14,072 nucleotides of DNA from Deltaproteobacteria bacterium (GTDB lineage: Bacteria; Desulfobacterota; BSN033; UBA1163), in NCBI GenBank assembly GCA_016875155.1, contig VGSD01000015.1, positions 1-14,072 on the forward strand. Reading direction: 5' to 3'. Under the pieces are notes generated by a model, which was given only the letters and a program-made list of their open reading frames with translations, had not been told where the DNA came from and made no database searches. Below are positions 1-12,896 of the stretch, one piece after another; position 1 is the first letter of the stretch, and each line of letters opens with the position of its first letter. The position numbers and the translations under genes were made by a program.

Positions 1-914
1 ACACCGATATTGCCATTTTGAACAACAAATATAAGGGACGGAGGCCTGTTCCCATCCCCATCATTATGGGTCATGAGGGAACGGGTGTGATTGCGGCATT
101 GGGGGAAGGCGTGGAAAACGTTTCTGTGGGGGATCGGGTCGGACTGGAAGTCCTCTACGGATGCGGAATCTGTATCAATTGCCTCAATGGAAACAGTAAT
201 ATGTGTGCGAACTGGAGGCATATCGGCATTACTTATGATGGCATCTTTGCCGAATATGTCGTTGTTCCGGCCCGCGCCGCTCACAGGCTTCCGGATAATG
301 TTTCATTTATCGATGCGGCCTGCCTCGAGCCGATCAGCCTGACCGTTCGAACGATGGAGCATGTGAGGCCGATCGTCGGAGATACGGTTGCGATTTTCGG
401 GCCGGGGGCCATCGGCCTCTTCCATCTCCAGGCCTTTAAGGCCGCAGGGGCTGGCCAGGTGATCATGATTGGCATTGACCAGGATGTGAAGCGATTTGAG
501 AAGGCGAGGGAGTTAGGAGCCGATCAAATCGTCAACGCCGACAAGGAGGATGTGGTCAAGCGAGTTCGAGAGTTGACCGACGGTCTTGGAGCGGATATTG
601 TTGTCGAAACAGCCAGCTCCCCTGATGTGGTGCCTTTAGCACTTGATGTCGCTGCGGCCAAGGGTCGTGTCTCCTTTTTCGGCCTCTATCCCGAAGCCAC
701 GGTGAGCCCCCTCACCATCACGCGAAGCGGCCTGCACATCTTCGGAGACGTGGGATCGCTCCCCCGCTATTTTGTTCGGGCGATCCGGTGGCTGAGGTAT
801 GGGAAAGTCAGGGCAACACCTCTTGCATCCCAATTCTTCCGCCTGGAAGAAGCCAGGGGGGCGCTTGAGGCTTCTCGCCTTGGGGATGTGGCGAAAGTCA
901 TTTTTAAGCTGTAG
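1..914 (+). CDS. Zinc-binding medium-chain alcohol/polyol dehydrogenase, 5'-truncated by window edge
   Basis: A medium-chain dehydrogenase of the threonine/sorbitol dehydrogenase type, expected to oxidise a secondary alcohol with NAD(P)+. The frame is open to the left edge (codons from position 3 read T-D-I-A-I-L), so the start lies outside; the TTG at 18 is only an internal codon. A GHEGTG motif at about 69-86 carries the catalytic-zinc His-Glu. The four structural-zinc cysteines lie at 162-206 with spacing C-x2-C-x2-C-x7-C. A Glu in CLEP (about 324-335) and a Rossmann FGPGAIG motif (about 399-419) follow. The gene stops with TAG at 912-914, about 200 bp before the regulator. It points the same way as the catabolic run and could supply an oxidation step. 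Family assignment is firm; the substrate is unknown. Confidence 0.9.
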   Translation, partial: TDIAILNNKYKGRRPVPIPIIMGHEGTGVIAALGEGVENVSVGDRVGLEVLYGCGICINCLNGNSNMCANWRHIGITYDGIFAEYVVVPARAAHRLPDNVSFIDAACLEPISLTVRTMEHVRPIVGDTVAIFGPGAIGLFHLQAFKAAGAGQVIMIGIDQDVKRFEKARELGADQIVNADKEDVVKRVRELTDGLGADIVVETASSPDVVPLALDVAAAKGRVSFFGLYPEATVSPLTITRSGLHIFGDVGSLPRYFVRAIRWLRYGKVRATPLASQFFRLEEARGALEASRLGDVAKVIFKL

Positions 915-1079
915 ACGTTCTATAGAGTCGAGAAAAATATAGTATGGTGAAAGAAATGTATGAATTGTATTTGGAGAAAACTGACGACTTAAAGATGAAA
1001 GAAAGTGCACTGTGGTCAGCTGAGCGATGAACGGGCCCTCCTGAAAAAAGTGAAGATCGGGGTCGAGTATTTTTTCTTC

Positions 1080-1108
1080 TTGACAGTCTGGCCTCAGCTT
1101 GTTATATT
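1080..1108 (+). promoter_or_regulatory. Strong sigma70 promoter of the IclR-family gene
   Basis: TTGACA at 1080-1085, a 17-bp spacer, and TATATT at 1103-1108. The -35 is a perfect consensus match and the -10 matches 5 of 6. The predicted transcription start (about 1114-1117) lies only 5-8 nt before the ATG at 1122, so the mRNA would be nearly leaderless. The same -35/-10 pair with the same spacer length occurs upstream of the citE-like gene on the minus strand. Confidence 0.75.
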
Positions 1109-1142
1109 TTATTGCAAGACAATGGCTGATAATATAATACAA
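1103..1142 (+). promoter_or_regulatory. Putative IclR operator, copy 1 (autoregulatory, overlaps -10 and start codon)
   Basis: The layout is TATATT-N5-GCAAGACA-N5-TGATAATATAATACAA. It matches the sequence at 12149-12110 on the minus strand at 35 of 40 positions without gaps. It contains a near-palindrome: TATATTTT (1103-1110) and ATAATATA (1129-1136) are 7 of 8 complementary, with an 18-bp spacer. The site covers the -10, the probable start point and the first codons of the regulator, a position suited to autorepression. That the IclR protein binds here is inference. Confidence 0.6.
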
Positions 1143-1910
1143 TCTGTTAACCGGGCATTGCAGATTCTCAATCTCTTTTCCCTTAATAATCCTCAGCTTG
1201 GTATTACGCAAATAAGCCGAGAATTAAGTTTGCATAAGGGAACGGTTCAGGGACTGGTTCGGACCCTGACAAATGCAGGTTTCTTGAGGCAGAATGGAGC
1301 AACGCGGAGGTATCAGTTAGGTCTAAAAATTTACGAATTGGGCGTAATTCTGGCCGGGGGCTTGGAGATCAACCAAAAAGCCTCAGCCCCGGCTCACAAA
1401 TTGGCAAGACAAACGCAGCATCTGGTGCGAATTGCTATTCAGGATGGAGATTCAGCCCTAGTCACTTTAGATGCATACCCCACCCCACAGCGCTTTCTTA
1501 CATGGCAATTTGGACCAAGATCTCCCTTATACTGCACAGCATTAGGGAAAACACTGCTCGCTTATCTAAGTCGGCAAGAGGTTGAAGGGTATCTCAAGAG
1601 AGTTAAACTTATTCCTTATACACCGCATACCATAACTAAAAAGGATAAATTCCTGAGAGAGTTAGAAGAAACAAGAAAAAGAGGCTACGCAATCAATCGG
1701 GAAGAAAACTTGTTGACTCGGGCTGCCATTGGAGTCCCCATCTTTGGAGGTGGGAAGTGTCCTGTTGCATCAATGTGTCTCGTTGGTAACCCAAGGTATA
1801 TCCTGGGGGAAGATAAAGAGAATCTCGCAGAGAAGGTCATGAAGACGGCTTTGGAAATATCGCTTTTAATGGGGCATTCCCAGGGCGTAACCTATGGGGA
1901 AAAGCGATAA
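1122..1910 (+). CDS. IclR-family transcriptional regulator
   Basis: A 262-residue DNA-binding regulator, the usual IclR length. The N-terminal winged helix-turn-helix begins IIQSVNRALQIL, the classic IclR start, with the recognition region at about residues 28-50. The ligand-binding domain follows (about 80-255), with the conserved stretch PLYCTALGKTLLAYL at about 135-149. An ATG at 1005 is in frame, but the 39 residues it would add look like translated promoter DNA, so I chose ATG 1122. That start has no Shine-Dalgarno and sits 5-8 nt after the predicted transcription start. IclR proteins often sense small organic acids and control adjacent catabolic genes. Its own promoter shares a site with the citE-like promoter, so it probably regulates both. 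Confidence 0.92.
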   Translation: MADNIIQSVNRALQILNLFSLNNPQLGITQISRELSLHKGTVQGLVRTLTNAGFLRQNGATRRYQLGLKIYELGVILAGGLEINQKASAPAHKLARQTQHLVRIAIQDGDSALVTLDAYPTPQRFLTWQFGPRSPLYCTALGKTLLAYLSRQEVEGYLKRVKLIPYTPHTITKKDKFLRELEETRKRGYAINREENLLTRAAIGVPIFGGGKCPVASMCLVGNPRYILGEDKENLAEKVMKTALEISLLMGHSQGVTYGEKR

Positions 1911-1917
1911 AAACAGA

Positions 1918-1957
1918 TGTCCGTACAGTTTGGACAATAGTCCCTGCAGTGATGGAC
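1918..1957. repeat. Four alternating GTCC/GGAC half-sites after iclR
   Basis: GTCC (1919-1922), GGAC (1932-1935), GTCC (1940-1943) and GGAC (1954-1957) alternate in orientation. The best arm pair is TGTCC (1918-1922) with GGACA (1932-1936). They could form alternative RNA hairpins or tandem protein half-sites. The words are short, so chance is possible. Confidence 0.3.
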
Positions 1958-1976
1958 CCTGATCTGGGCGATTTCT

Positions 1977-2027
1977 AAAATGGAGCTTAAGAAACAGGAT
2001 GTCTTGCCTAAAGCCCCCATTTTTTTT
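1977..2027 (+). terminator. Candidate rho-independent terminator after iclR
   Basis: AAAATGG (1977-1983) pairs with CCATTTT (2017-2023), and GCTT (1985-1988) pairs with AAGC (2011-2014), around a 22-nt loop. An eight-T run follows at 2020-2027 and partly overlaps the stem. It lies 67 bp after the iclR stop and would separate the regulator from the transporter genes. The stem is imperfect and AU-rich, so confidence is moderate. Confidence 0.4.
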
Positions 2028-2098
2028 CTCAGAGGATTAGGGGTTAGAATGGGATAGAATTCTTTGGGAACGATGAAATAACACAGAAAGGAGGTGCG

Positions 2099-2167
2099 TT
2101 GATAACCAAACAAGAAAAAACTTACTGCATAGAAGCTGAGGAAGGAGTTTGTTTTCACGTAATTTGA
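2099..2167 (+). CDS. Possible 22-residue leader peptide upstream of dctP
   Basis: A very strong ribosome site, AAAGGAGG (2087-2094), is followed after 4 nt by TTG (2099). This opens a 22-codon frame ending TGA at 2165-2167, read as MITKQEKTYC then IEAEEGVCFHVI. The dctP start lies 48 nt beyond, with its own strong ribosome site. I recognise no family. The TTG start and tight spacing argue against it; the near-perfect ribosome site with no other gene to serve argues for it. It may be a translated leader that affects dctP expression. Confidence 0.25.
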   Translation: MITKQEKTYCIEAEEGVCFHVI

Positions 2168-2214
2168 CGGACCGATATTGGAGAGCATCCAAACATATAA
2201 CAGGAGGTGAAATT

Positions 2215-3219
2215 ATGTCTACCAATTTGAATCGCTGGCTAGTGATTACCGTGATTACAGTCTTCACTCTAACTACCACCTTTTTCGGCCACATCAATTT
2301 GGCCCAGGCTGCCGACAAAATAGACCTTCGTATGTCAATCTCTCAGCCGGACAATTCTATCCAAGGTTTGGCTTACACTCGATTCAGCAAATTGATCGGG
2401 GAGGATTTCAAATTTACTCCCTATTACTCCAATACCCTATTCAAGCAAGGGACTGAAATCCCTGCACTGCAGCGCGGCAATCTTGAAATGGCTAATGTCT
2501 CAGCCGCGGATATCGCCAAACAAATGCCTGAATTTTCAATATTTATGGCCGGCTACGTCATCCGTGATCAGGATCACCTAAGAAAGGTATTCAAAGGTGA
2601 GATTGGCGCTGAAATGTATAAGAAGATTGAGGACCAAATGAAAATCAAACTGATCGGTTGTTATAACTTGGGAACGCGCCAACTCAATTTGCGAGGCACT
2701 AAAAAGATCATGAAGCCAGAGGATCTGAAAGGCGTGAAACTCCGTATGCCTACATCTGAATCCTATCAGTTTCTTGGGAAGGCCCTGGGTGCTGATGTAA
2801 CACCGATGGCTTTCCAAGAAGTCTATACAGGTCTGCAAACCGGCGCGATTGATGCTCAGGACAATCCTTTACCGAACACGAAGGTAATGAAATTCTATGA
2901 AGTCACCAAACAGATTATCCTAACAGGTCATCTGGTTGATCCCCAATATATTGCAGTTGCCAAAACGGTGTGGGATAAGCTAACGCCTCAACAGAAGTCG
3001 AAGATGCAGGCGGCTGCAGATGAAGCGTGCGCCTACAACGATGAGCTAACCGCAAAGGACGAGGCGGAGTGTGCGGAGTTTTTCAAAAAACAAGGCCTCG
3101 AGGTTTATAAGCCGGATTTGGAGGCCTTTCGTCAGTACGCCCAGAAGATGTATTTGGGGTCAAAATATGCTGAGGTCTGGCCTAAGGGACTCTTGGATCG
3201 GATTAATGCCGTTAAGTAG
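2215..3219 (+). CDS. dctP: TRAP transporter periplasmic solute-binding protein, DctP family
   Basis: The extracytoplasmic substrate-binding subunit of a TRAP transporter, which captures an organic acid in the periplasm and hands it to DctQM. It has 334 residues, typical for DctP. A Sec signal peptide covers about residues 1-32 with cleavage after AQA. The family signature QEVYTGLQTGAIDAQDNP lies at about 191-208, and LKGVKLRMP carries the Arg (about 167) that in this family contacts the substrate carboxylate. The start at ATG 2215 follows AGGAGGTGA (2202-2210). The frame extends upstream to 2149, but those residues do not fit a signal peptide. The membrane subunits lie downstream after an unusual 653-bp gap. 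An acid with a carboxylate is likely as substrate; its identity is not visible. Confidence 0.93.
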   Translation: MSTNLNRWLVITVITVFTLTTTFFGHINLAQAADKIDLRMSISQPDNSIQGLAYTRFSKLIGEDFKFTPYYSNTLFKQGTEIPALQRGNLEMANVSAADIAKQMPEFSIFMAGYVIRDQDHLRKVFKGEIGAEMYKKIEDQMKIKLIGCYNLGTRQLNLRGTKKIMKPEDLKGVKLRMPTSESYQFLGKALGADVTPMAFQEVYTGLQTGAIDAQDNPLPNTKVMKFYEVTKQIILTGHLVDPQYIAVAKTVWDKLTPQQKSKMQAAADEACAYNDELTAKDEAECAEFFKKQGLEVYKPDLEAFRQYAQKMYLGSKYAEVWPKGLLDRINAVK

Positions 3220-3872
3220 ATATTAGGCGTGGATGAAAAAAGAGATTTTTCACATTAAAGGGCAGGGCCGAGGCTCGCAGGGGCTTCCTCTTGATTTCGG
3301 CAACTCTTTCGTGTCGCAGTCCAAAATGGGCCTGCTTAAAAAAGAAGCCGTTCGCGTGATTACACCTCAGTTCCTGCCTGAATCCCTGTTTGCATCCGGA
3401 GGATTTCGATGTTGGAATCGAATGTTTCGAAGAGGTTCTCCTTTTATCGGTTGGCTGAATTGCGCCGCTAATAACATGATCGATGGTTTCTTGATACGTT
3501 CGACGGCGCCAAACCGTTCGGCTGAGCTCACGGCCGAAGCCCGGAGTTTAGATCGGGGTAAGAAGCGCCGCTCAGTATCAACCCCTGCCTACCAGCAGGC
3601 AGGCTGAGTCCCTCGGTTGAATTCGGGGCTTGAGCCGTTCGATACATTCACGGCCTTGCGCTCGTCGAAAGGTTTGGCGAAAGGCATACCCCGGGTGCTT
3701 GTCCTGAGCGCAGTCGAAGGATCAGACCGGGGAGCCGAATGGGTTGATTCAAGAATCGATCGATGGACTTCCAGTAACCCGTGGACCCTGATTCAACAGG
3801 CTTTCTGCCCCTGGTCTTTGGAAGCACGATGGTGCAGATGTGTTGATGAGTCAACCTAAGGGAGAGACCTTT
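3220..3872. repeat. Repeat-rich non-coding gap between dctP and dctQ
   Basis: A 653-bp stretch in which I see no convincing gene. Open frames exist (3233-3607 and 3617-3859 plus; 3648-3896 minus), but their products are low-complexity, have no family features and cross the repeats. It holds several short palindromic or dispersed-repeat-like units. TTCGGC/GCCGAA arms lie at 3517-3538. A hairpin, CCTGCCT/AGGCAGG, lies at 3584-3603. The unit CCTGAGCGCAGTCGAAGG at 3703-3720 resembles a repeat I recall from intergenic regions of many anaerobe genomes. The first and third units share a TGAGC...CGAAG core. The stretch probably reflects repeat insertion inside a TRAP operon. Confidence 0.6.
3584..3603. 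repeat. Perfect 7-bp stem-loop in the dctP-dctQ gap
   Basis: CCTGCCT (3584-3590), loop ACCAGC, AGGCAGG (3597-3603). No T-run follows, so it is not an obvious terminator. It may protect the dctP mRNA 3' end, or it may simply be part of the dispersed repeat. Confidence 0.5.
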
Positions 3873-4370
3873 ATGAAAGTGCTGAGATGGCTTCATGACC
3901 GTGCGAAGGATGTGGGGGTGGTGCTACTTATGGCCATTTTTTTCACCTTCGTTTTGCAAGTCTTCATGCGCTATGTGGTTGGACATCCACTTGGCTGGAC
4001 CCTTGAAATGAGCCTTATGGTGTATTTATGGCTCGTTTTTTGGTTTTCTGGATTTTTGGTCAAGGATAAAGAGCAAATCTATTTTGACATGCTTTATGTC
4101 GCTGTTAAACCTAAAACGCGCCAGATTTTCGACATTATTACAGGAACGATTATCGTTATCGCTTTGGCTCTTAGCTATCCCGCAACGGTCGATTATGTGA
4201 CCTTCATGAAGATTGAGAAGACGGGAGCAACTCAAATCAGACTGGATTATGTTTTCTCAATTTTTCTTATTTTCTTACCTTTTGTGGTCATCCGGGGAGG
4301 CATCCGGATCTTTCACTTACTGTTCGGAGATTCCGGCGGTCCAGATAAAAGGGAGGAGACAAACCCATGA
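3873..4370 (+). CDS. dctQ: TRAP transporter small membrane subunit, DctQ family
   Basis: The small permease subunit that joins DctM in the inner membrane. It has 165 residues with four predicted membrane helices (about 12-32, 44-63, 85-105 and 123-145). RYVVGHPLGWTLEMS after helix 1 matches the DctQ pattern of an Arg-Tyr, a Trp and an acidic residue. I start at ATG 3873 because GGGAGAG lies at the right distance upstream; ATG 3846 is in frame but would add a polar leader without a good ribosome site. Its stop overlaps the dctM start by four bases (ATGA, 4367-4370), a sign of translational coupling. Confidence 0.9.
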   Translation: MKVLRWLHDRAKDVGVVLLMAIFFTFVLQVFMRYVVGHPLGWTLEMSLMVYLWLVFWFSGFLVKDKEQIYFDMLYVAVKPKTRQIFDIITGTIIVIALALSYPATVDYVTFMKIEKTGATQIRLDYVFSIFLIFLPFVVIRGGIRIFHLLFGDSGGPDKREETNP

Positions 4371-5671
4371 GTTTTGCCTTTGCTCTTTCTTTAGGCGTTC
4401 TTTTTGGACTGGGTGCTGTTGGCGCGCCGATAGCATATGCGATGATCATTGCTTCAATCGCGTATTTGCTGGTGGCCGGACAGGATCTCGGGCTTGTTGT
4501 TGAGCAAATGGCCCAAGGGGTATTAAACAATTTTATAATACTGGCCATACCGTTGTTTATTCTTTCGGCAAGAATTATGAATGAGGGAGCCTTGACGGAC
4601 CGACTTCTTAAATTTTGTATAATGATTTTGGGAAGATTTCGAGGGGGATTGGCGCATGTCAATGTGTTTGGAAGCCTAATTTTTTCCGGAATGTCCGGTT
4701 CCGCTATTGCCGATGTGGCTGGGATTGGCAGAGTCATGATGAACATGATGATTAAAACCGGTTATTCACCGGGTTTTGCCGCCGCAATTACCGTAGCCTC
4801 CGCAACGATTGGCCCGATTTTCCCGCCGTCGATTCCAATGGTGCAATACTCACTGGTTTCAGACGCCTCCATCGGCTATTTATTTTTGGGGGGCATTATT
4901 CCGGCCTTTTTAATGACTGGTTTCCTAATGCTAACGATAGCCTATGTCGCGGCTAAGAAAAAATGGCGACCCGACAGAGCGAACGATGAAATCGTAACCA
5001 TAAGGGAAATTCCCAGGGTTACGATCCAGGCGTTTCCAGCGCTCCTATTACCGGTGATCTTGTTGGGTGGAATATACGGAGGTGTGGCCACACCGACCGA
5101 GGCGGCCGCAATTGCAGCCTTCTATGCCCTATTAGTTGCTACGTTTTTCTATCGCACGATCTCCGTTCAAAAACTTTATGTCATATTTTTCGAAAGCGCC
5201 CACTCGGGGGCACTTGTCGGACTGATTATTGCTGCCGCTTATATTTTTAACTTTGTTGTAACCAGCGCCAATATTCCTCAACTTATTTCCACCCTGATTA
5301 GCAATCTGAATCTTACGCCTCTCTCGTTCATGTTATTGGCCAATGTGATTTTTTTAGTGCTTGGCTGTTTTGTTGATGCGACGATAAGTCTTCTTGTTGT
5401 AATTCCGCTATTCCTTCCCTCCTGTCGAGCCATGGGTATCGATTTGGTGTACTTTGGTGTGGTGATCGTCCTGAATATCATGATTGGTTTAACCACCCCA
5501 CCTTACGGGATCTTGCTTTACGTCCTCTCGGGGATTACAGGCGTCCCATTCAGCAAGATTGTCAGAGAGATCTGGGTATTCATCATTCCCTTACTTGCCG
5601 TTTTAGTCGTTTTAATCATATTCCCGGACTTGGTGTTGTGGGTGCCAAGAATATTTGGTTATAAGGGGTAA
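4367..5671 (+). CDS. dctM: TRAP transporter large membrane subunit, DctM family
   Basis: The large permease subunit, which uses the sodium or proton gradient to drive uptake of the solute delivered by DctP. It has 434 residues, the standard DctM length, and is hydrophobic almost throughout. Family signatures include SGSAIADVAGIG near residues 110-120, the GPIFPPSIPMV segment, and GGIYGGVATPTEAAA in the middle. The GLTTPPYGILLYV motif near the C-terminus is also typical. A GGGAGGAG ribosome site lies just upstream. It is a separate polypeptide, not a DctQM fusion. Confidence 0.95.
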   Translation: MSFAFALSLGVLFGLGAVGAPIAYAMIIASIAYLLVAGQDLGLVVEQMAQGVLNNFIILAIPLFILSARIMNEGALTDRLLKFCIMILGRFRGGLAHVNVFGSLIFSGMSGSAIADVAGIGRVMMNMMIKTGYSPGFAAAITVASATIGPIFPPSIPMVQYSLVSDASIGYLFLGGIIPAFLMTGFLMLTIAYVAAKKKWRPDRANDEIVTIREIPRVTIQAFPALLLPVILLGGIYGGVATPTEAAAIAAFYALLVATFFYRTISVQKLYVIFFESAHSGALVGLIIAAAYIFNFVVTSANIPQLISTLISNLNLTPLSFMLLANVIFLVLGCFVDATISLLVVIPLFLPSCRAMGIDLVYFGVVIVLNIMIGLTTPPYGILLYVLSGITGVPFSKIVREIWVFIIPLLAVLVVLIIFPDLVLWVPRIFGYKG

Positions 5672-5752
5672 AAACAGAATAGGATTTTGCTGGAGATTAG
5701 ACTTGGGTCATGAAAAATAATATTTCCGTTCTCGATCATGCGGGAGAATGCT

Positions 5753-6796
5753 ATGTCTAAACTGAAACTTGGTATAATCGGAGCTGGTTTGATCGGCAAA
5801 ACGCATATCAGAACCGCACTCAAAATACCGGATTTTGAAGTGGTGGGTGTGGCAGATCCGGATCCGGCGGCTCTGGCGATTGCAGGAGAGTACTCCCTCA
5901 AAAGGTACAAATCGCATCAAGAGTTGTTGGCTGCTGTAAAACCGGATGCGGTGATTGTGGCAACCCCTAATAAATTACATGTTCCTGTAGGCATAGATTG
6001 TGCTCGCGCGGGAGCTCATCTTTTTGTTGAAAAACCGATTTCCGAATCAGTGGAAGCAGCCAACCAATTAAATGCCGAAGCCCATAAGGCAGGGGTTATT
6101 GTTCAAGTCGGTCACCATCGGCGCCACTACAAGCGAACAAAAGAGGCCCGCCGCATTGTGCAAGGCGGGGAAATAGGGGAATTGGTCGGCGTAACCGGGA
6201 TCTGGGCGAGCTTGAAGCCGGATGCGTATTTTAACGTCACCTGGCGTACTCAACCGGGCGGTGGGCCGGTGTTGATTAATCTCATTCACGAAATTGATAA
6301 TCTTCGGTTTATATGCGGTGAAATCATTGAAGTGATCGCCCGTAACAGCAATCAGAGGCGAGGGTATGCAGTGGAGGATACCTCTGCGGCCATCCTGACA
6401 TTGGCCAATGGTGCGTTGGGCACTGTATTCACAACAGATTCAGCCGCCACACCCTGGAATATAGAAATGGGCATTGGTGAGAATCCGAACTACCCAATGA
6501 CAGCGGAAAACAGTTGGTTTTTTATGGGCAGCAACGGGTCTTTATCTTTTCCAAACCTGATTTTGTGGTCTTATCGTGATCCATCTTTGCGGGGCTGGGA
6601 AAGTCCGCTGGCGCCTCAACCCGTGCCGATATTTGAGCATAATCCGTATCTTGAGGAGCTCAAACACTTCCAGGCAGTTATTGAGGGCAGGGAGGAACCA
6701 CTGATCTCGGGAGTGGACGGCACGCGGACGCTGGCAGTGACATTGGCTATCCTCGAATCCTCAAAAACAGGCAAGGCCATCAAAGTCCTTATTTAG
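5753..6796 (+). CDS. Gfo/Idh/MocA-family NAD(P)-dependent oxidoreductase
   Basis: A dehydrogenase of the glucose-fructose oxidoreductase/inositol dehydrogenase family, 347 residues. The Rossmann fold opens the protein with GIIGAGLIG (about residues 7-15). The EKP motif with its catalytic Lys is at 93-95. A GGG...H-x2-D pattern at about 169-182 matches the family's active-site region (His 179, Asp 182). I start at ATG 5753, which has GGGAGA at proper spacing; ATG 5738 is in frame but covers that ribosome site. These enzymes oxidise polyols, sugar acids or related cyclic alcohols, so this is probably a substrate-entry oxidation. The gene lies 81 bp after dctM. Confidence 0.92.
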   Translation: MSKLKLGIIGAGLIGKTHIRTALKIPDFEVVGVADPDPAALAIAGEYSLKRYKSHQELLAAVKPDAVIVATPNKLHVPVGIDCARAGAHLFVEKPISESVEAANQLNAEAHKAGVIVQVGHHRRHYKRTKEARRIVQGGEIGELVGVTGIWASLKPDAYFNVTWRTQPGGGPVLINLIHEIDNLRFICGEIIEVIARNSNQRRGYAVEDTSAAILTLANGALGTVFTTDSAATPWNIEMGIGENPNYPMTAENSWFFMGSNGSLSFPNLILWSYRDPSLRGWESPLAPQPVPIFEHNPYLEELKHFQAVIEGREEPLISGVDGTRTLAVTLAILESSKTGKAIKVLI

Positions 6797-6882
6797 AGGC
6801 AGGGGGAAACAATACAGGAAGAGATAGAACAATTCTTTCAATCGACAGGGATTGCAGAAAATCAAAGGAAAGGAGAACGGAT

Positions 6883-7881
6883 ATGAAGCAGACAGATGAT
6901 GCAAGTAAGGCCAAAGGGAAGGAAAAAGATGATCTGATATTGATCGATGTGGAAACGCACATGTTCCCGGCGTTGAAGAATATCAGCTACTTCCCAGGGA
7001 TGCAGTTGGTGAAGGCGAAACGAGCGCCGAATCGCAGTTACTCGGATTGGGGAGCAAAGGATGTGGATGCGGATATGGTCATAAAACTCATGAATGAGAA
7101 TGGGGTGGATTATTCATGTATCCTTCCTGAAATCATGCTCTCTTTGACGAACAACAAGATTTCTTGGTCAACAAATGGCTGGTTAAAAGAACAACAATCT
7201 AAATATCCGGATCGATTTATCGCTCAGTGTAACGTAGGGCCCGTTTTGAAATGCGGCGTGAAAAACGCCTGTTGGGAGGTGGAGCACCTTGTAAAGGAGA
7301 TGGGCTTCGAGATGATTAAACTGTATCCACCCGAGGATATTGGGCCTATGAATGACCGGGCTATGTGGCCTTACTATGAAAAAGTCGCAGAACTGGGGGT
7401 TCCATTGGCCATCCATGCCAGCATGTCGTTTGTCGCCGGTCAGTTTACCAAGAATTGCCACCCTTTACTGCTAGAGGAGATCGCAACGGATTTTCCCGAA
7501 ATTCCCATTATCGCCCACCATCTGGGATATCCTTTCGTGGATGAACTTTGTTGGCTATCCTCCATTTACAGGAACATTTATATCGGAACGAGCTATATTC
7601 TTGGATCTACATGGGTCGATTCTTCCCCCCGATTGGCTGGAAAGCTGCTTGGGAAGATCATGCAGTTTGCCACACCCGATAAAATTATATGGGGAACGGA
7701 CTTCACGGGTAACGAGAAGGAATACCGGGAGGCAGTAAACTTTGTCCGGAACTTTCAGATCCCTGAAGATGTGCAACGCGACTACGGTTATAAACCGCTC
7801 ACGCACGAAGACAGGAAGAAGTGGGCGGGATTGAATCTAGCGCGTCTCCTCAAAAAGAATGTTGAGAAAAAGGCCCCTTAG
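6883..7881 (+). CDS. Amidohydrolase-2 family metal-dependent hydrolase/decarboxylase
   Basis: A TIM-barrel protein of the amidohydrolase-2 (COG2159-like) superfamily, 332 residues. The first-strand metal motif reads D-V-E-T-H, giving Glu24 and His26 where many members have His-x-His. Further candidate metal or catalytic residues are His178 (LAIHAS), His212/His213 (AHHLGYP) and Asp273 (WGTDF). Relatives include lactonases such as those acting on sugar or pyrone lactones, and non-oxidative decarboxylases. A Glu at the first position occurs in some decarboxylases of this group. In this context either lactone hydrolysis after the Gfo/Idh dehydrogenase or decarboxylation is plausible. An AAAGGAGA ribosome site precedes ATG 6883. 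Confidence 0.85.
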   Translation: MKQTDDASKAKGKEKDDLILIDVETHMFPALKNISYFPGMQLVKAKRAPNRSYSDWGAKDVDADMVIKLMNENGVDYSCILPEIMLSLTNNKISWSTNGWLKEQQSKYPDRFIAQCNVGPVLKCGVKNACWEVEHLVKEMGFEMIKLYPPEDIGPMNDRAMWPYYEKVAELGVPLAIHASMSFVAGQFTKNCHPLLLEEIATDFPEIPIIAHHLGYPFVDELCWLSSIYRNIYIGTSYILGSTWVDSSPRLAGKLLGKIMQFATPDKIIWGTDFTGNEKEYREAVNFVRNFQIPEDVQRDYGYKPLTHEDRKKWAGLNLARLLKKNVEKKAP

Positions 7882-7915
7882 GCGTCTGGCTCTGGTGCGA
7901 CTGGTTAATCCGAAA

Positions 7916-7943
7916 GGATGGTCCTCCAGTGGGAGGATCATCC
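7916..7943 (+). other. Intercistronic RNA hairpin before the SDR gene
   Basis: GGATGGTCCTCC (7916-7927), loop AGTG, GGAGGATCATCC (7932-7943). This gives a 12-bp stem with one G-U pair. No T-run follows, so it is not a simple terminator. It sits about 20 nt before the SDR ribosome site (AGGAGG at about 7961-7966) and could affect mRNA stability or processing between the two genes. Its right arm carries a GGAGG that the stem would mask. Confidence 0.55.
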
Positions 7944-7971
7944 GGTTCATGAAAAATATGAGGAGGAAATC

Positions 7972-8709
7972 ATGGAGCATAAAGACCGCGTTGCCATAGT
8001 AACCGGGGCCGCGCGAGGCTTGGGAAAGTGCATTTCAGAACTGTTGGCCAAGCATGGGGCCAAGGTGGCTCTTTGGGATATCCAGACGATTGATCTGAAG
8101 GGTGGATTTAATGCTGGCACCGGTCAGTTTAAGGCCTGGCTAGTAGATATGACTGATGAGGAAAAAGTACGCGTTGCTACCCATCAGGTTGCTGAGGAGT
8201 GGGGTGGCATCGATATCTTAGTCAACAACGCAGGTATCCTCAAACATTTACGCATTGAAGAGATGACTCTAAGAGATTTTGAATCTGTGATTCGAGTCAA
8301 TTTGACGGGAACTTTCCTGGCCTGCAAGTACGTTGTGCCTTACATGAAAAAAAGGGGCAAGGGGAAGATCGTTAACATTGCCAGCCTGAGCGGTCGGACC
8401 GGGCGGCCAGGGGTAGGTGTCAACTATGCCGCATCCAAAGCAGGGGTGATTGGGTTGACGCAGACGTTGGCCAGGGAACAGGGACCCAATGGCATCTATG
8501 TCAATTGCGTCTGCCCCGGCCCGATTTTAACCGAGTTGACCAAACAGGTTCCTTCTGAAGTCTTCGCTACTTGGAACATTGGCCGGGCAGTAGAAAAGGA
8601 TGGAAAACCTGAAGATGTGGCTGAGGCAGTATTTTTCTTGGCCTCTGATCGTTCTGATTGGATAACCGGTGCCACCTTGGATATCAATGGTGGAATCTTA
8701 ATCAGGTAA
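7972..8709 (+). CDS. Short-chain dehydrogenase/reductase (SDR)
   Basis: A classical SDR of 245 residues, NAD-preferring by the Asp at the end of strand 2 (Asp36 in ALWDI). Motifs in order are TGAARGLG (11-18), NNAG (85-88), Asn110, Ser138 in the NIAS segment, and Tyr152-x3-Lys156 (YAASK). I start at ATG 7972, directly after AGGAGG with five bases between; an ATG at 7918 is in frame but would add 18 residues encoded by the hairpin. The family includes 3-oxoacyl and sugar-alcohol dehydrogenases. Here it probably oxidises a hydroxyl group of the pathway intermediate. Confidence 0.92.
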   Translation: MEHKDRVAIVTGAARGLGKCISELLAKHGAKVALWDIQTIDLKGGFNAGTGQFKAWLVDMTDEEKVRVATHQVAEEWGGIDILVNNAGILKHLRIEEMTLRDFESVIRVNLTGTFLACKYVVPYMKKRGKGKIVNIASLSGRTGRPGVGVNYAASKAGVIGLTQTLAREQGPNGIYVNCVCPGPILTELTKQVPSEVFATWNIGRAVEKDGKPEDVAEAVFFLASDRSDWITGATLDINGGILIR

Positions 8710-8888
8710 TAAGGGAGATATCCCGCAACCCATAGGATCTTAGTCTAAACGAGAGCGATGTCCACTGACCTTTTCCAGTCTGTGAAAGAGATAGGGGAGA
8801 AGGGAAAGAAGGTTTGATCTTTTTTTAGTCTGCGGGCCGTAAGGGTGGATTAGAAGGCGGACATCCAACAAATTACAGGGGAGAAACT

Positions 8889-10097
8889 GTGAGCCGGGTG
8901 TTAGAGCATATAGGGAAGCAGATTTTGCACGGAAATGGGATAGCTGTCCCGAGTTTTTTTGTGGCAGCTGGCAAAACGGAGGCAGATCAGGCCGGGGACA
9001 ATTTAGGCTACCCTGTCGTCATTAAAGCCTTAGTCCCTGTCGGAAAGCGGGGAAAGGCAGGAGCTGTTCGTTTTGCTGAAAACCGCGGCGAACTCGAGAA
9101 AATATCAGAAGAGATGTTAAGCATGAGTGTTCGCAATTTCCCAGTAGAGAAACTTCTTGTCGAAAAGAAAATTGACATTGCGCAAGAACTCTATGTTTCT
9201 ATCACGATCGACTCTTCAAATCAGATGCCTGTCATTATTGCCAGCACTTCCGGAGGAATAGATATTGAAGAGATTGCAAAGCAGGACCCGAGCAGAATCT
9301 CAAAACGCCATGTAAACATATTAGAAGGCCTTCACCAGTATCAAGCCAAGGAGATATGGTCAGACCTAGGTTTAAAAGAACGACCTCTTCAAGCGGCGAC
9401 AGAAACACTGTGGAAACTTTATCAGGTGTTTAGAAGGTATGATGCAACTGTCTTGGAGGTCAATCCTCTCGCGATTACGACAGAAGGGAAAACTGTGGCG
9501 GCCGCTGTTCTGATGGGAGTTGATGATGATGCCTTGTACAGGCAGCCTGAATTATCAGATAAGGTGGAAATAGGCAGCGACCGAGCGTGGAGACCCCTTA
9601 CTCAACGTGAGAAAGACATGGTTGCTGTGGATAGAGCAGAGCCCTACCGAGGGACAGCCCGGTATACAGAAATGGATGGGGGAGATATCGGGTTCTTTTG
9701 TGGGGGGGGAGGTGGAAGCCTCCTCGTATACGATATGTTGCTTCAATATGGAGGCAAGCCTGCGAATTATACCGAATTTGGGGGAAACCCGACGGACACG
9801 AAGGTGTATGGCTTAGCAAAAGGGATCCTTTCGAAACCAGGAGTGAAGGGGTTTTTGCTTGATGCAAACATTACTAATAATACGCAGACTGACTTGGTCG
9901 CTAAGGGGATCATCAAAGCAGTTCAAGACTTGGGGATAGATGTTAAAAAATTTCCCATAGTAATGCGACTTGCGGGTGTGAATGAACCCAAAGCTCGAGA
10001 ACTCTTTCAAGAAGCAGGAATAGAATACCATGGAGACGATATCACCATGGAGGATGCGGCTCGACTCATCGCCGAAAAAATGAAAAACCAGAGTTGA
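8889..10097 (+). CDS. ATP-grasp acyl-CoA synthetase beta subunit, ATP-citrate-lyase/citryl-CoA-synthetase-like
   Basis: The nucleotide-binding subunit of an ADP- or GDP-forming acyl-CoA synthetase, 402 residues. The ATP-grasp half includes Lys46 (VVIKA) and the metal-binding LEVNPL (Glu190, Asn192). The C-terminal CoA-ligase domain departs from succinyl-CoA synthetase. Where SucC and malate-CoA ligase have a VNGAGLAM-type segment, this has CGGGGGS (271-277), then NYTEFGGNP (293-301) and ANITNN (326-331). These resemble the GGGAS, NYGEYSGAP and IANFTN motifs of ATP-citrate lyase. The usual HEYQAK N-terminus is also absent. The GTG start at 8889 follows AGGGGAGA. The alpha subunit begins 14 bp downstream. 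Substrate unknown; a citrate-like acid is my inference. Confidence 0.88.
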   Translation: MSRVLEHIGKQILHGNGIAVPSFFVAAGKTEADQAGDNLGYPVVIKALVPVGKRGKAGAVRFAENRGELEKISEEMLSMSVRNFPVEKLLVEKKIDIAQELYVSITIDSSNQMPVIIASTSGGIDIEEIAKQDPSRISKRHVNILEGLHQYQAKEIWSDLGLKERPLQAATETLWKLYQVFRRYDATVLEVNPLAITTEGKTVAAAVLMGVDDDALYRQPELSDKVEIGSDRAWRPLTQREKDMVAVDRAEPYRGTARYTEMDGGDIGFFCGGGGGSLLVYDMLLQYGGKPANYTEFGGNPTDTKVYGLAKGILSKPGVKGFLLDANITNNTQTDLVAKGIIKAVQDLGIDVKKFPIVMRLAGVNEPKARELFQEAGIEYHGDDITMEDAARLIAEKMKNQS

Positions 10098-10111
10098 GGG
10101 AGAAAGACTTA

Positions 10112-11014
10112 ATGGCAATATTGGCGACAAGAGATTGTAGGATCGTGATTCAAGGCATTACCGGTAGAGAAGCCTCAATGGTGACACGGCACGCTTTGTC
10201 CTACGGGACAAAAATACTGGCGGGTGTTACCCCTGGCAAAGAAGGTCAACAGGTGGAGAATGTCCCTATATACGATACCCTGAAACGGGCTTGTCAAAGG
10301 CATGATTTGAATACGTCGATCATTTATGTCCCCCCTGCTTTTGCCCATGACGCGGTGATGGAAGCTATTGGCAACGGGATAAAACTGATTGTGATCATCA
10401 CTGAAAGAATACCCAGACATGATGTAGCCCGCTTTCTTGCCGCTGCAAAAAGAGCCGACTGCACAATCGTTGGTCCGAATTCAGTGGGGATCTTAAGCCC
10501 GGCTGAAAAGGTTAAACTGGGGGCCCTGGGAGGGGATAACGTCAGCCGTTGCTTTGTCCCCGGAGAAGTAGGGGTAATTTCACGAAGCGGGGGGATGACG
10601 GCGGAATGTTCCTGGATGGTGAAGAGGGCAGGATTCGGTGTCAGCACGAGTGTAAGTTTAGGGGGAGACCCGCTGATCGGCTCTCCTCCTAAAACGATAT
10701 TAGCCCTGTTTGAGAAAGATCCTAAAACGAAGGCAGTCGTCCTTTGGGGAGAACCGGGAACAAGCCACGAAGAAGATGTTGCCGATTTCATGAAGGAAGG
10801 GGGGTTTACGAAACCTTTGATTGCCTACGTCGCAGGTAGATTCGTCGAAGATATGTCCGAGGGAACAGTTTTCGGTCACGCTGCTTCGATCATTGAAGGA
10901 GGAAAAGGAAAACCCTCATTGAAGAATGCCTACCTTCGAGAAGCCGGTGCTCACGTGCCTAATCGCTTTAATGAAATCATTGAACTTCTTCAGAAAGTGG
11001 TTAGAAAAAAATAA
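10112..11014 (+). CDS. Acyl-CoA synthetase alpha subunit (SucD/ATP-citrate-lyase-like)
   Basis: The CoA-binding, phosphohistidine-bearing subunit, 300 residues. The CoA-binding fold has QGITGRE (14-20) and AGVTPGKEG (37-45). GPNSVGILSP lies at 121-130. The transiently phosphorylated His is His256 in FGHAASII, and a helper Glu is Glu214 in GEPGT (GEIGG in relatives). SRSGGM (157-162) and the C-terminal KNAYLREAGAHVP stretch look more like ATP-citrate lyase than like E. coli SucD. I start at ATG 10112, with GAGGGAGA upstream; a TTG at 10094 overlaps the beta-gene stop and is less likely. It forms a complex with the preceding subunit and should make a CoA thioester for the neighbouring lyase. 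Confidence 0.92.
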   Translation: MAILATRDCRIVIQGITGREASMVTRHALSYGTKILAGVTPGKEGQQVENVPIYDTLKRACQRHDLNTSIIYVPPAFAHDAVMEAIGNGIKLIVIITERIPRHDVARFLAAAKRADCTIVGPNSVGILSPAEKVKLGALGGDNVSRCFVPGEVGVISRSGGMTAECSWMVKRAGFGVSTSVSLGGDPLIGSPPKTILALFEKDPKTKAVVLWGEPGTSHEEDVADFMKEGGFTKPLIAYVAGRFVEDMSEGTVFGHAASIIEGGKGKPSLKNAYLREAGAHVPNRFNEIIELLQKVVRKK

Positions 11015-11030
11015 TTCGGTCTAATCTGAG

Positions 11031-11933
11031 CTATCCCTTAGATGTTCCTGAGCCAAGTTTCTCGTAAACGCGGAGCACCCGTTTGGCACGCTCAATGATG
11101 GGCAGGTCAAGCAATTGACCACCGAATGCTACTGCCCCATCACCTCGGGCGACAGCCGCGTCGAAGGCCGCGACGACGCGGGTTGCGTAGTCGATTTCGG
11201 CTGCCGACGGCGTGAAGGCATTGTTGATGAGATCAATCTGCCCAGGGTGGAATGTCGATTTTCCCGTGAATCCAAGTCTGCGTGCCTGGATCGTATCTCG
11301 TTCACAACCTTCCAGGTCGTGGATGTCGGGCCACACCCCGTCAAAACTAGCAATGTGGGCGCTGGCGGCTGCATTTACAATGGCCGCGCGGGCATAGACT
11401 AGCTCGCGCGCTTCAGCAACACGGTGTGACGGCAAGCCCAGGTCCAGTGCGTAATCCTCCGCTCCAAACAGCAAGCCAAGAAGCCTTGGTGAGCTAGCAG
11501 CTATTGCCGGTCCTTTGATGAGCCCTTTTGCACTCTCAATAGCGGCGACGAGCTTGATATGACCGGGCTTGATTCCGACTTGCTTTTCGCGTTTGTCTAA
11601 GAACGCCTCCACCAAGTGTACGTCAGCAGGATCCTCAACCTTGGGGATGATCAGGCCCTCAAGACCTGGAACGATGACCATGGCAAGGTCAGCGTCGATC
11701 CTATCTGGGCCAGTACCCACCGCATTGATTCGGACAAAAATCGTCGGCGCGCCCGCAGGCTTTTCTCTTTTCAAAGCGGAAACGATCTGCTCACGGGCAA
11801 CCGCTTTGTGTGAGGGGATAACACCATCCTCAATATCGAACATCGCCACATCGAGGTTCTTCAGAGTGAAAGCTTTCTCTATGAACCGAAGGCTATTCCC
11901 TGGAACGAACATCCATGAACGCATAAAATCCAT
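11031..11933 (-). CDS. CitE-like CoA-ester lyase (HpcH/HpaI aldolase/citrate lyase family)
   Basis: A 300-residue TIM-barrel lyase related to the citrate lyase beta subunit, malyl-CoA lyase and citramalyl-CoA lyase. These split a hydroxyacyl-CoA into a 2-oxoacid and an acyl-CoA by retro-Claisen cleavage with a divalent metal. Visible residues are Arg5 (RSWMFVPG), DIEDGV (33-38), Arg68 (VRIN), Glu133 (AAIES), Asp160 (FGAED) and Lys225/His229 (KSTFHP). No acyl-carrier or alpha subunit of classical citrate lyase is nearby, so it probably acts on the CoA ester made by the adjacent synthetase. It converges on that gene with a 16-bp gap. GGAGGAG precedes its ATG. Its sequence is clearly GC-richer than the other catabolic genes. 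Confidence 0.92.
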   Translation of the reverse strand: MDFMRSWMFVPGNSLRFIEKAFTLKNLDVAMFDIEDGVIPSHKAVAREQIVSALKREKPAGAPTIFVRINAVGTGPDRIDADLAMVIVPGLEGLIIPKVEDPADVHLVEAFLDKREKQVGIKPGHIKLVAAIESAKGLIKGPAIAASSPRLLGLLFGAEDYALDLGLPSHRVAEARELVYARAAIVNAAASAHIASFDGVWPDIHDLEGCERDTIQARRLGFTGKSTFHPGQIDLINNAFTPSAAEIDYATRVVAAFDAAVARGDGAVAFGGQLLDLPIIERAKRVLRVYEKLGSGTSKG

Positions 11934-12009
11934 GTCTAGGCTCCTCCATCACATATTGATTAAATGCCGCCACAGTTGTAGGCGTAATGAATCATGTAAA
12001 CCGGTTTCT

Positions 12010-12064
12010 CCAGATAGGTCAGGTTGGTTTTGGTTTTTCCGTTTATCATTTAGTTTCTATCTGG
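12010..12064 (-). other. Inverted repeat in the citE-like 5' leader
   Basis: CCAGATAG (12010-12017) and CTATCTGG (12057-12064) are perfect 8-bp complements with a 39-nt loop. The pair lies within the roughly 200-nt untranslated leader expected for the citE-like mRNA. It could form a leader stem or be an operator with widely spaced arms. No terminator-like T-run follows on the minus strand. Confidence 0.3.
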
Positions 12065-12109
12065 TGCCACAATATTTTAACCATTTATCGTTTGACTTCG
12101 GCTCAGAAT

Positions 12110-12149
12110 TTGTATTATATTATCAATCACTGTCTTGCATTATAATATA
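12110..12149 (-). promoter_or_regulatory. Putative IclR operator, copy 2 (citE-like promoter)
   Basis: Read on the minus strand: TATATT-N5-GCAAGACA-N5-TGATAATATAATACAA. It matches 1103-1142 at 35 of 40 positions with no gap. TATATTAT (12149-12142) and ATAATATA (12123-12116) form a perfect 8-bp inverted repeat with an 18-bp spacer. It overlaps the -10 and the predicted transcription start of the citE-like gene. Read in the same frame as the iclR start, it encodes V-I-D-N-I-I-Q and reaches a stop 11 codons later, so a decayed iclR start is an alternative explanation. Confidence 0.6.
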
Positions 12150-12172
12150 TCAGTTATGGGTTAAGATGTCAA
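12144..12172 (-). promoter_or_regulatory. Strong sigma70 promoter of the citE-like gene
   Basis: On the minus strand, TTGACA at 12172-12167, a 17-bp spacer, and TATATT at 12149-12144. Both hexamers and the spacer length equal those of the iclR promoter, but the spacer sequence differs (5 of 17 identical). The predicted start lies near 12136-12138, leaving a leader of about 200 nt before ATG 11933. Confidence 0.7.
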
Positions 12173-12221
12173 GGAAAAGTTTCTGAAATTTTCTTAAAAA
12201 TTACAGTCAGCCATTTCCACC

Positions 12222-12250
12222 TTGACAAACCTACCGTAATTCTTTAGTTT
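12222..12250 (+). promoter_or_regulatory. Possible maf promoter
   Basis: TTGACA at 12222-12227 is followed after 17 bp by TAGTTT (12245-12250), a poor -10 matching 3 of 6. The maf ATG at 12258 is only 8 nt beyond, so the transcript would again be nearly leaderless. The maf start has no visible ribosome site, which fits. Weak evidence. Confidence 0.3.
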
Positions 12251-12257
12251 TTAGTGA

Positions 12258-12896
12258 ATGGCGAACCTACTTATTCTTGCTTCGAAGTCTCCACGCAGAT
12301 GTGAATTGTTGAAGCAACTGGGCGTTGATTTTGAAGTGATTCCAAGTAAAATTGAAGAGGATTCTGTCCTTGGAGAGTCTCCCGGGGAGCATGTGATTCG
12401 ATTGGCAGAAGCAAAAGCCCAGGATGTCGGGAATCGATTTCCAGATCACTGGGTGATCGGCGCAGACACGATCGTCTATGTGGACGGTACCATTTTAGGA
12501 AAACCAAAGGGCCAGCAGGAGGCGCTGGAGATGCTCCGGCTGATGAGCGGGAAAGAGCACCATGTTTTGACCGGCGTCTCCGTCCGGCATTCTAACAAAG
12601 GAGTAGGAGAATGCGGAGTCGTGGAGACCGCCGTAAGGGTTAAAACGCTCAGCCCGGCGGAGATGGAGTGGTATATCGGAACAGGCGAGCCCTTCGATAA
12701 GGCAGGGGGATATGGCATCCAGGGGATCGGATCATTTATGATTGAATCGATCAACGGGTCCTATACCAATGTCGTTGGCCTTCCTCTGTGTGAGTTGATG
12801 CAGATGATGAGTCGGTTGGGAGCCCTTTCGATTTCGGAATGCGGCCTCCGGCTCAGAGAGCCCTCTGGCTCGGAGAGATTGCAGATTTCGGAATAA
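12258..12896 (+). CDS. maf: Maf-family nucleoside triphosphate pyrophosphatase
   Basis: A house-cleaning pyrophosphatase that hydrolyses non-canonical or excess NTPs (dTTP/UTP type in the YhdE branch) to the monophosphate. It has 212 residues, slightly longer than usual because of a variable tail after about residue 190. Motifs are LASKSPRR (7-14), GADTIV with the catalytic Asp70, GKPKG (81-85), LTGVSV (104-109) and the C-terminal GIQGIGSFMIESINGSY stretch. No Shine-Dalgarno is visible before ATG 12258. It is divergent from the citE-like gene and probably marks the start of a separate housekeeping run with yggS. Confidence 0.93.
   Translation: MANLLILASKSPRRCELLKQLGVDFEVIPSKIEEDSVLGESPGEHVIRLAEAKAQDVGNRFPDHWVIGADTIVYVDGTILGKPKGQQEALEMLRLMSGKEHHVLTGVSVRHSNKGVGECGVVETAVRVKTLSPAEMEWYIGTGEPFDKAGGYGIQGIGSFMIESINGSYTNVVGLPLCELMQMMSRLGALSISECGLRLREPSGSERLQISE

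Follow-up and report, generated by a model that had tools for sequence, protein, structure and literature searches.

A shared element at two promoters

The stretch under study, 14,072 nucleotides of contig VGSD01000015.1 from a Deltaproteobacteria bacterium (hereafter the window), holds a catabolic gene cluster that runs from iclR, the gene of an IclR-family regulator (1122..1910, plus strand), to a gene for a citE-like lyase (11031..11933, minus strand); maf and yggS follow outside the cluster. The iclR and citE-like genes each lie behind a promoter of the form TTGACA-N17-TATATT, with TG preceding the -10 box and 11 of the 12 sigma-70 consensus bases (1080..1108, plus strand, and 12144..12172, minus strand), and both promoters lead into a common operator-like element of 40 bp. 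At iclR, this element starts with the -10 box, includes the start codon and ends at codon 7 (1103..1142, plus strand; dyad centre 1122), and its second copy lies before the citE-like gene (12110..12149, minus strand; dyad centre 12130).

An earlier note made from the sequence had pointed to this pair, and a base-by-base check agrees with its ungapped alignment of 1080-1142 (plus) and 12172-12110 (minus). The two sites are identical at 6/6 positions of the -35 box, 5/17 of the spacer, 6/6 of the -10 box and 29/34 of columns 30-63, which amounts to 46/63 overall and to 35/40 from the -10 box onward (12149-12110 on the citE side). The counts of 35/40 and 5/17 given in the note were reproduced, together with its run of 16 identical bases, TGATAATATAATACAA, present in both copies; GCAAGACA, really TGCAAGACA, is also found at both sites. 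Past column 63, the identity drops abruptly to chance. Both sites are very A/T-rich, with a G+C content of 0.225 and 0.20.

Comparison of the window's two strands gave 35/40 as the top ungapped 40-mer match, the runner-up (30/40) being an inverted repeat at 10653/10697 inside the sucD-like gene. Among 1000 dinucleotide shuffles of both flanks, the best 40-mer match averaged 22.7 and reached 27 at most, against the observed 35. A 29-base core is found at two places in the window and, with up to three mismatches allowed, in none of 200 shuffles. The iclR and citE promoters tie for first among the 20 sigma-70-like sites found in 900-12300, where 15.5 are expected by chance. The similarity is uneven, since the spacer stands at chance level and the downstream part does not (5/17 versus 29/34; Fisher p 1e-4). 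If the transcription start is taken as 7 nt after the -10 box, the constrained part runs from -10 to about +27. The shared, constrained promoter-operator element is real.

The iclR gene and its product

The IclR protein (262 aa) matches the Pfam families HTH_IclR (51.3 bits, cut-off 22) and IclR_C (120.5 bits, cut-off 24), and with both domains it qualifies as an IclR-family transcription factor. All eight NCBIfam models listed for named subfamilies (PcaR/PcaU/PobR, BhcR, KdgR, IclR, AllR) scored below their cut-offs, the best being PcaR/PcaU/PobR with 126.6 bits for a cut-off of 284.75.

No Shine-Dalgarno sequence was seen before the iclR ATG, where the upstream sequence reads TTATATTTTATTGCAAGACA; the eight central genes of the cluster and the citE-like gene carry purine-rich Shine-Dalgarno sequences. 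The ATG sits about 6-7 nt downstream of the predicted transcription start (-10 box at 1103-1108), an arrangement that suggests a probably leaderless message. Five homologues (P0002, P0003, P0005-P0007) begin at the same ATG. The N-terminal motif M-x-D-N-[IL]-I-Q-S is kept in all eight of the closest homologues listed (P0002-P0009) and in 16 of the 119 homologues listed, the window's own protein excluded. Its D-N residues precede the HTH domain and are encoded by GAT-AAT within the element, whose two Ile codons are both ATA, the rarest of the three (0.18 in 12 window genes). The frame V-I-D-N-I-I-Q, reported in the earlier note for the citE-side copy, was indeed found there, at 12130-12110.

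The citE-like gene and its leader

The citE-side promoter stands some 200 nt ahead of the citE-like gene, whose ATG is at its high end (11933) and is preceded by GGAGGAG. The encoded protein (300 aa) matches Pfam HpcH_HpaI. Because the NCBIfam citE model gave 224.4 bits, below its cut-off of 443.4, and no citrate lyase alpha or gamma chain was found among the Pfam matches of the 10 window proteins scanned, it is more aptly described as a CoA-ester lyase of the HpcH/HpaI aldolase family. The G+C content of the gene is 0.55, versus 0.43-0.50 in the eight central genes, and its third-position G+C (GC3) of 0.57 is barely above theirs (0.45-0.56).

The leader of about 200 nt (11934-12137, minus strand) contains a small open reading frame, MIHYAYNCGGI, ahead of the citE ribosome site. 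A loose peptide pattern for relatives of this frame, run on 105 other sequences, gave one match only (L028), which looks unrelated.

The earlier note had offered as its alternative a decayed duplicate of iclR at the citE-like gene. A blastn comparison of 11934-12257 returned the 40-bp block (E 2e-7) and otherwise matches of 8-9 bases with E values of at least 0.86, and the best tblastn hit of the whole IclR protein in the same region had an E value of 0.059. As the match ends sharply and both searches give only noise beyond the block, with no iclR similarity past 12110, no pseudogene is visible, and a decayed iclR pseudogene before the citE-like gene was rejected.

Relatives of the regulator and traces of the element

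The proteins closest to the window IclR are 82-87% identical (best 120 of 280 listed; a second listing gave the best 120 of 2607). The closest genome matches reach at most 56%, under titles such as Syntrophobacterales, Desulfatitalea, Desulfobacteraceae and similar. A first scan of genome contigs for close relatives gave none and a second gave 80 loci with a best identity of 55%. Searches for iclR in overlapping sets of 5, 395, 55 and 389 genomes, with matches at the set thresholds in 5, 6, 1 and 20 of them, gave a best identity of 56%. No iclR relatives were found in viral contigs.

One close homologue carries what appears to be a translated trace of the element. P0004, 82% identical to the window IclR, has its called start 14 codons upstream of the Met aligned to the window start; this extension equals the distance from TTGACA to ATG in the window, and its first residues (the start and Thr) allow TTG-ACN. 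Before the Met, P0004 reads DILYCKT, and when reverse-translated this peptide fits the citE site with one mismatch and the iclR site with two, the best two fits in the whole window (the next has 4 mismatches and the mean is 12.6). The residues at the spacer fit both sites poorly and those from the -10 box on fit, so that the uneven constraint of the window's own pair recurs in another iclR. These fits suggest that the element is conserved and that the pair is old. The citE copy matches P0004 at two codons (D and L) against the window's iclR copy, and the reverse holds at Y. The shared D and L codons make a recent copy unlikely, pointing to a split older than the 82%-identical relative. Among the four hits of a region-limited search for extended IclR proteins, two are extended: P0004 and the window's own.

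Resemblance to the element was scanned at 80 loci of relatives (L001-L080), and the upstream DNA was viewed for L001-L013, L051 and L081-L105. L001 (55%), the closest of the named relatives with DNA, has at its iclR promoter a borderline in-register resemblance of 13/29 columns; among 43 promoter-like sites this one scores highest (mean 7.8, sd 2.3). In its own genome, the L001 sequence with up to three mismatches retrieves itself only, and a looser pattern finds one place. A citE relative at E <= 1e-80 is present in 1 of the 395 genomes (G202, 54%); no other cluster gene was seen in the 10.2 kb fetched there, the contig ending right behind citE.

Symmetry and comparison with IclR-family operators

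An 8-bp inverted repeat with an 18-bp spacer, described in the earlier note, exists at the two sites but is weak evidence alone: a perfect 8-bp repeat arises somewhere in 37 of 1000 shuffled citE regions, and one with at most one mismatch in 125 of 300 shuffled iclR regions, so that the repeat is not significant at iclR. A longer imperfect dyad about column 43 of both sites (1122 and 12130; 13/19 and 12/19 pairs) is better supported, as a weak common dyad that 40 of 5000 joint column shuffles matched.

Suvorova and Gelfand (2021; PMC8222616) report that the centres of IclR-family sites peak prominently between -3 and +1 relative to the gene start, are also usual at -20 to -80 and tail off to -300. 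The iclR dyad centre, which is the A of the ATG, falls within the usual position (-3 to +1), and the citE dyad, about 197 nt upstream of the gene, falls outside the usual zones and inside the tail. The same study counts DctPQM among the transporter subunits co-occurring in IclR-family regulogs, and groups IclR, KdgR, AllR and SsgR as having A/T-rich palindromic operators (PMC8222616).

Compared with local autoregulators of the IclR, KdgR, PcaU and PobR type (PMC8222616), the window system shares a protein with IclR_C and HTH_IclR domains, a candidate palindrome on its own promoter centred at the start codon, and catabolic neighbours with a DctPQM transporter. Unlike in that type, the site fits the group 1 and group 2 consensuses only at chance, the 40-bp near-identity exceeds the single palindrome of those groups, and the second target is remote and convergent, and the iclR-adjacent operon has no copy. 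Like the operators of IclR, KdgR, AllR and SsgR, the sites are A/T-rich, roughly palindromic and overlap the promoter; unlike those, judged by their group consensus (8-9/14), the citE core is CA-N-TG with TATTATA/TATAATA arms.

Among 26 chosen loci, iclR is preceded in some distant relatives by good group 1 palindromes, scoring 0.94 (L099, L102) or 0.88 (L010, L087, L089, L090). In L099 and L102 these near-consensus palindromes, ATTCCATAATATGGAAC and ATTCCACATTATGGAAC, lie some 22 nt ahead of the iclR portion that was matched and are candidate operators.

A proposed operator of the IclR-family protein

We think it fairly probable that both 40-bp stretches are copies of a single operator; its most likely binder is the IclR-family protein of 1122-1910, which would thereby repress iclR and the citE-like gene. 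That IclR is the binder, controlling its own gene and the lyase gene, is plausible. As a type of control, local autoregulation with a single remote target is ordinary; it has good support here and stops short of proof. The claim of the earlier note that the pair is a selected regulatory element and not a recent copy is supported by the uneven constraint, the P0004 trace at iclR and the lack of iclR-derived sequence beyond the block.

Each operator copy would span the -10 box, the predicted transcription start and about 27 bases further, a position in which a bound regulator would block initiation; from it we infer that the protein, presumably IclR, binds and keeps RNA polymerase off both promoters. 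In this way iclR would be autorepressed, and the citE-like lyase gene, at a distance of 11 kb, repressed as well, until a putative effector lifts the block; this may be a CoA-ester intermediate or the compound that the TRAP transporter imports. At iclR, the operator would overlap the start codon and first codons of the probably leaderless message, so that the operator and the N-terminal coding sequence would share bases. A bolder extension, which we hold to be unlikely, is that DNA binding dictates the M-x-D-N-I-I-Q of a whole IclR subclade from within the leaderless coding start, and that the block, serving at once as promoter, operator and prospective first codons, was reused upstream of the remote lyase gene, which would have been wired to the regulator in one step.

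Should the proposal prove true, an uncharacterised IclR regulator would be linked to a CoA-ester lyase that is likewise uncharacterised, and an operator sequence would be at hand for tracing the remaining regulon and thereby the cluster's substrate. A very A/T-rich, CA-N-TG-centred operator outside both published IclR consensuses would be added as well, together with a case of bases common to an operator and a coding start.

Several results weigh against this proposal. The P0004 trace is the reverse translation of one protein, and the relatives fetched as DNA are at most 56% identical. The 29-base core, with up to three mismatches, was found in 0/395 sampled genomes (the phylum of G001), and a 20-base form of it in 0/111 loci. 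Across the element, L001 agrees at only 18/35 positions, fewer than the 23 attained at chance places, and none of its five best dyads is centred on column 43. The published consensuses, GKTYCRYW3-4RYGRAMC (group 1) and TGRAACAN1-2TGTTYCA (group 2), fit poorly: the group 2 core gives 8/14 and 9/14, with 17 window places outscoring the citE core, and is equalled by 1696/2000 and 768/2000 shuffles of the two 40-mers; group 1 gives at most 13 of 17 or 18 and is equalled by 247/2000 and 209/2000. Two genes outside the cluster, maf and yggS, lack a Shine-Dalgarno sequence as iclR does. Finally, no copy of the element was found before dctP or in the gaps of 5753..11014.

Alternative explanations

A first alternative, which we rate as improbable, is that a stretch of about 40-63 bp from the 5' end of iclR was copied before the citE-like gene and was kept or has not yet decayed, its regulatory role being secondary. 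The 16 consecutive identical bases, the gapless alignment from the -35 box to codon 7 and the V-I-D-N-I-I-Q frame kept at 12130-12110 would follow from such descent, and the citE-like gene has a G+C content above that of the central genes, as in a later arrival, its GC3 barely so. However, a simple copy should be evenly similar, and the spacer between the -35 and -10 boxes is at chance though both sides of it match. In addition, the citE copy is nearer to P0004 at the D and L codons, the Y codon favouring the iclR copy, and no iclR similarity was found beyond the element. If an old copy had been retained by selection, this alternative would amount to the operator explanation plus an origin.

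Somewhat more doubtful is a shared operator of another regulator, global or encoded nearby, in place of the window IclR. This would agree with the chance-level fit to both published IclR consensuses, with the very low G+C of the sites (0.225 and 0.20) and with the good group 1 palindromes that precede iclR in some distant relatives and not in the window. It is countered by the location of one of only two window copies on the regulator's own start, and by the reverse-translated P0004 trace, likewise at an iclR.

Coincidence between two strong A/T-rich promoters, the iclR side being fixed by M-A-D-N-I-I-Q, could draw on the mutual similarity of such promoters and on the N-terminal residues conserved in the nearest homologues listed, but is scarcely credible when 0/1000 shuffles exceed 27/40, the 29-base core is in 0/200 with three mismatches allowed, and amino-acid constraint cannot reach the citE copy or the bases preceding the ATG.

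Reach of the control and the other genes of the cluster

No third copy of the element was found in nine cluster gaps, where the best places score 17.5-21/40, like chance places inside genes. With no copy before dctP, the genes for the transporter and the enzymes would lie outside this control, be reached by read-through or be controlled otherwise, and the control of the whole 11-kb cluster put forward in the earlier note is not borne out. Its description of a bracketing pair stands as regards the near-identical promoters at the ends; with the citE site about 200 nt upstream of its gene and none before dctP, the central operon's regulatory DNA is not enclosed by the pair. A bracketed 11-kb regulon is a claim exceeding the evidence. 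A candidate terminator after iclR, a stem before TTTTTTTT (1965-2032 folded), was rejected because it folds no better than shuffles (z 0.00), so that read-through from iclR into dctP would be possible.

By Pfam and NCBIfam scans, the central part of the cluster, all on the plus strand, comprises the TRAP transporter genes dctP, dctQ and dctM (2215..5671), followed by genes for a Gfo/Idh oxidoreductase, an amidohydrolase-2, an SDR and SucC-like and SucD-like CoA ligase subunits (5753..11014). The combination of a SucCD-like ligase, an HpcH/HpaI lyase (8889-11933) and a TRAP transporter hints that an imported hydroxy- or dicarboxylic acid is activated and cleaved. For the SucC-like, SucD-like and HpcH/HpaI proteins, all listed NCBIfam models score under their cut-offs. 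Rfam at its gathering thresholds gave zero matches across the window, and title-level literature searches found no title on this cluster. A gene truncated at the window edge (3-914), which we take to be alcohol-dehydrogenase-like, was named from its translation outside the family-library scan, as were the presumed maf and yggS.

A stretch of 650 bp without a convincing gene (3220-3872, plus strand) divides dctP from dctQ, which encode subunits of one transporter. Its translations seem to us reminiscent of dispersed repeats, and it contains an imperfect 14-bp inverted repeat (3507-3520/3666-3679).

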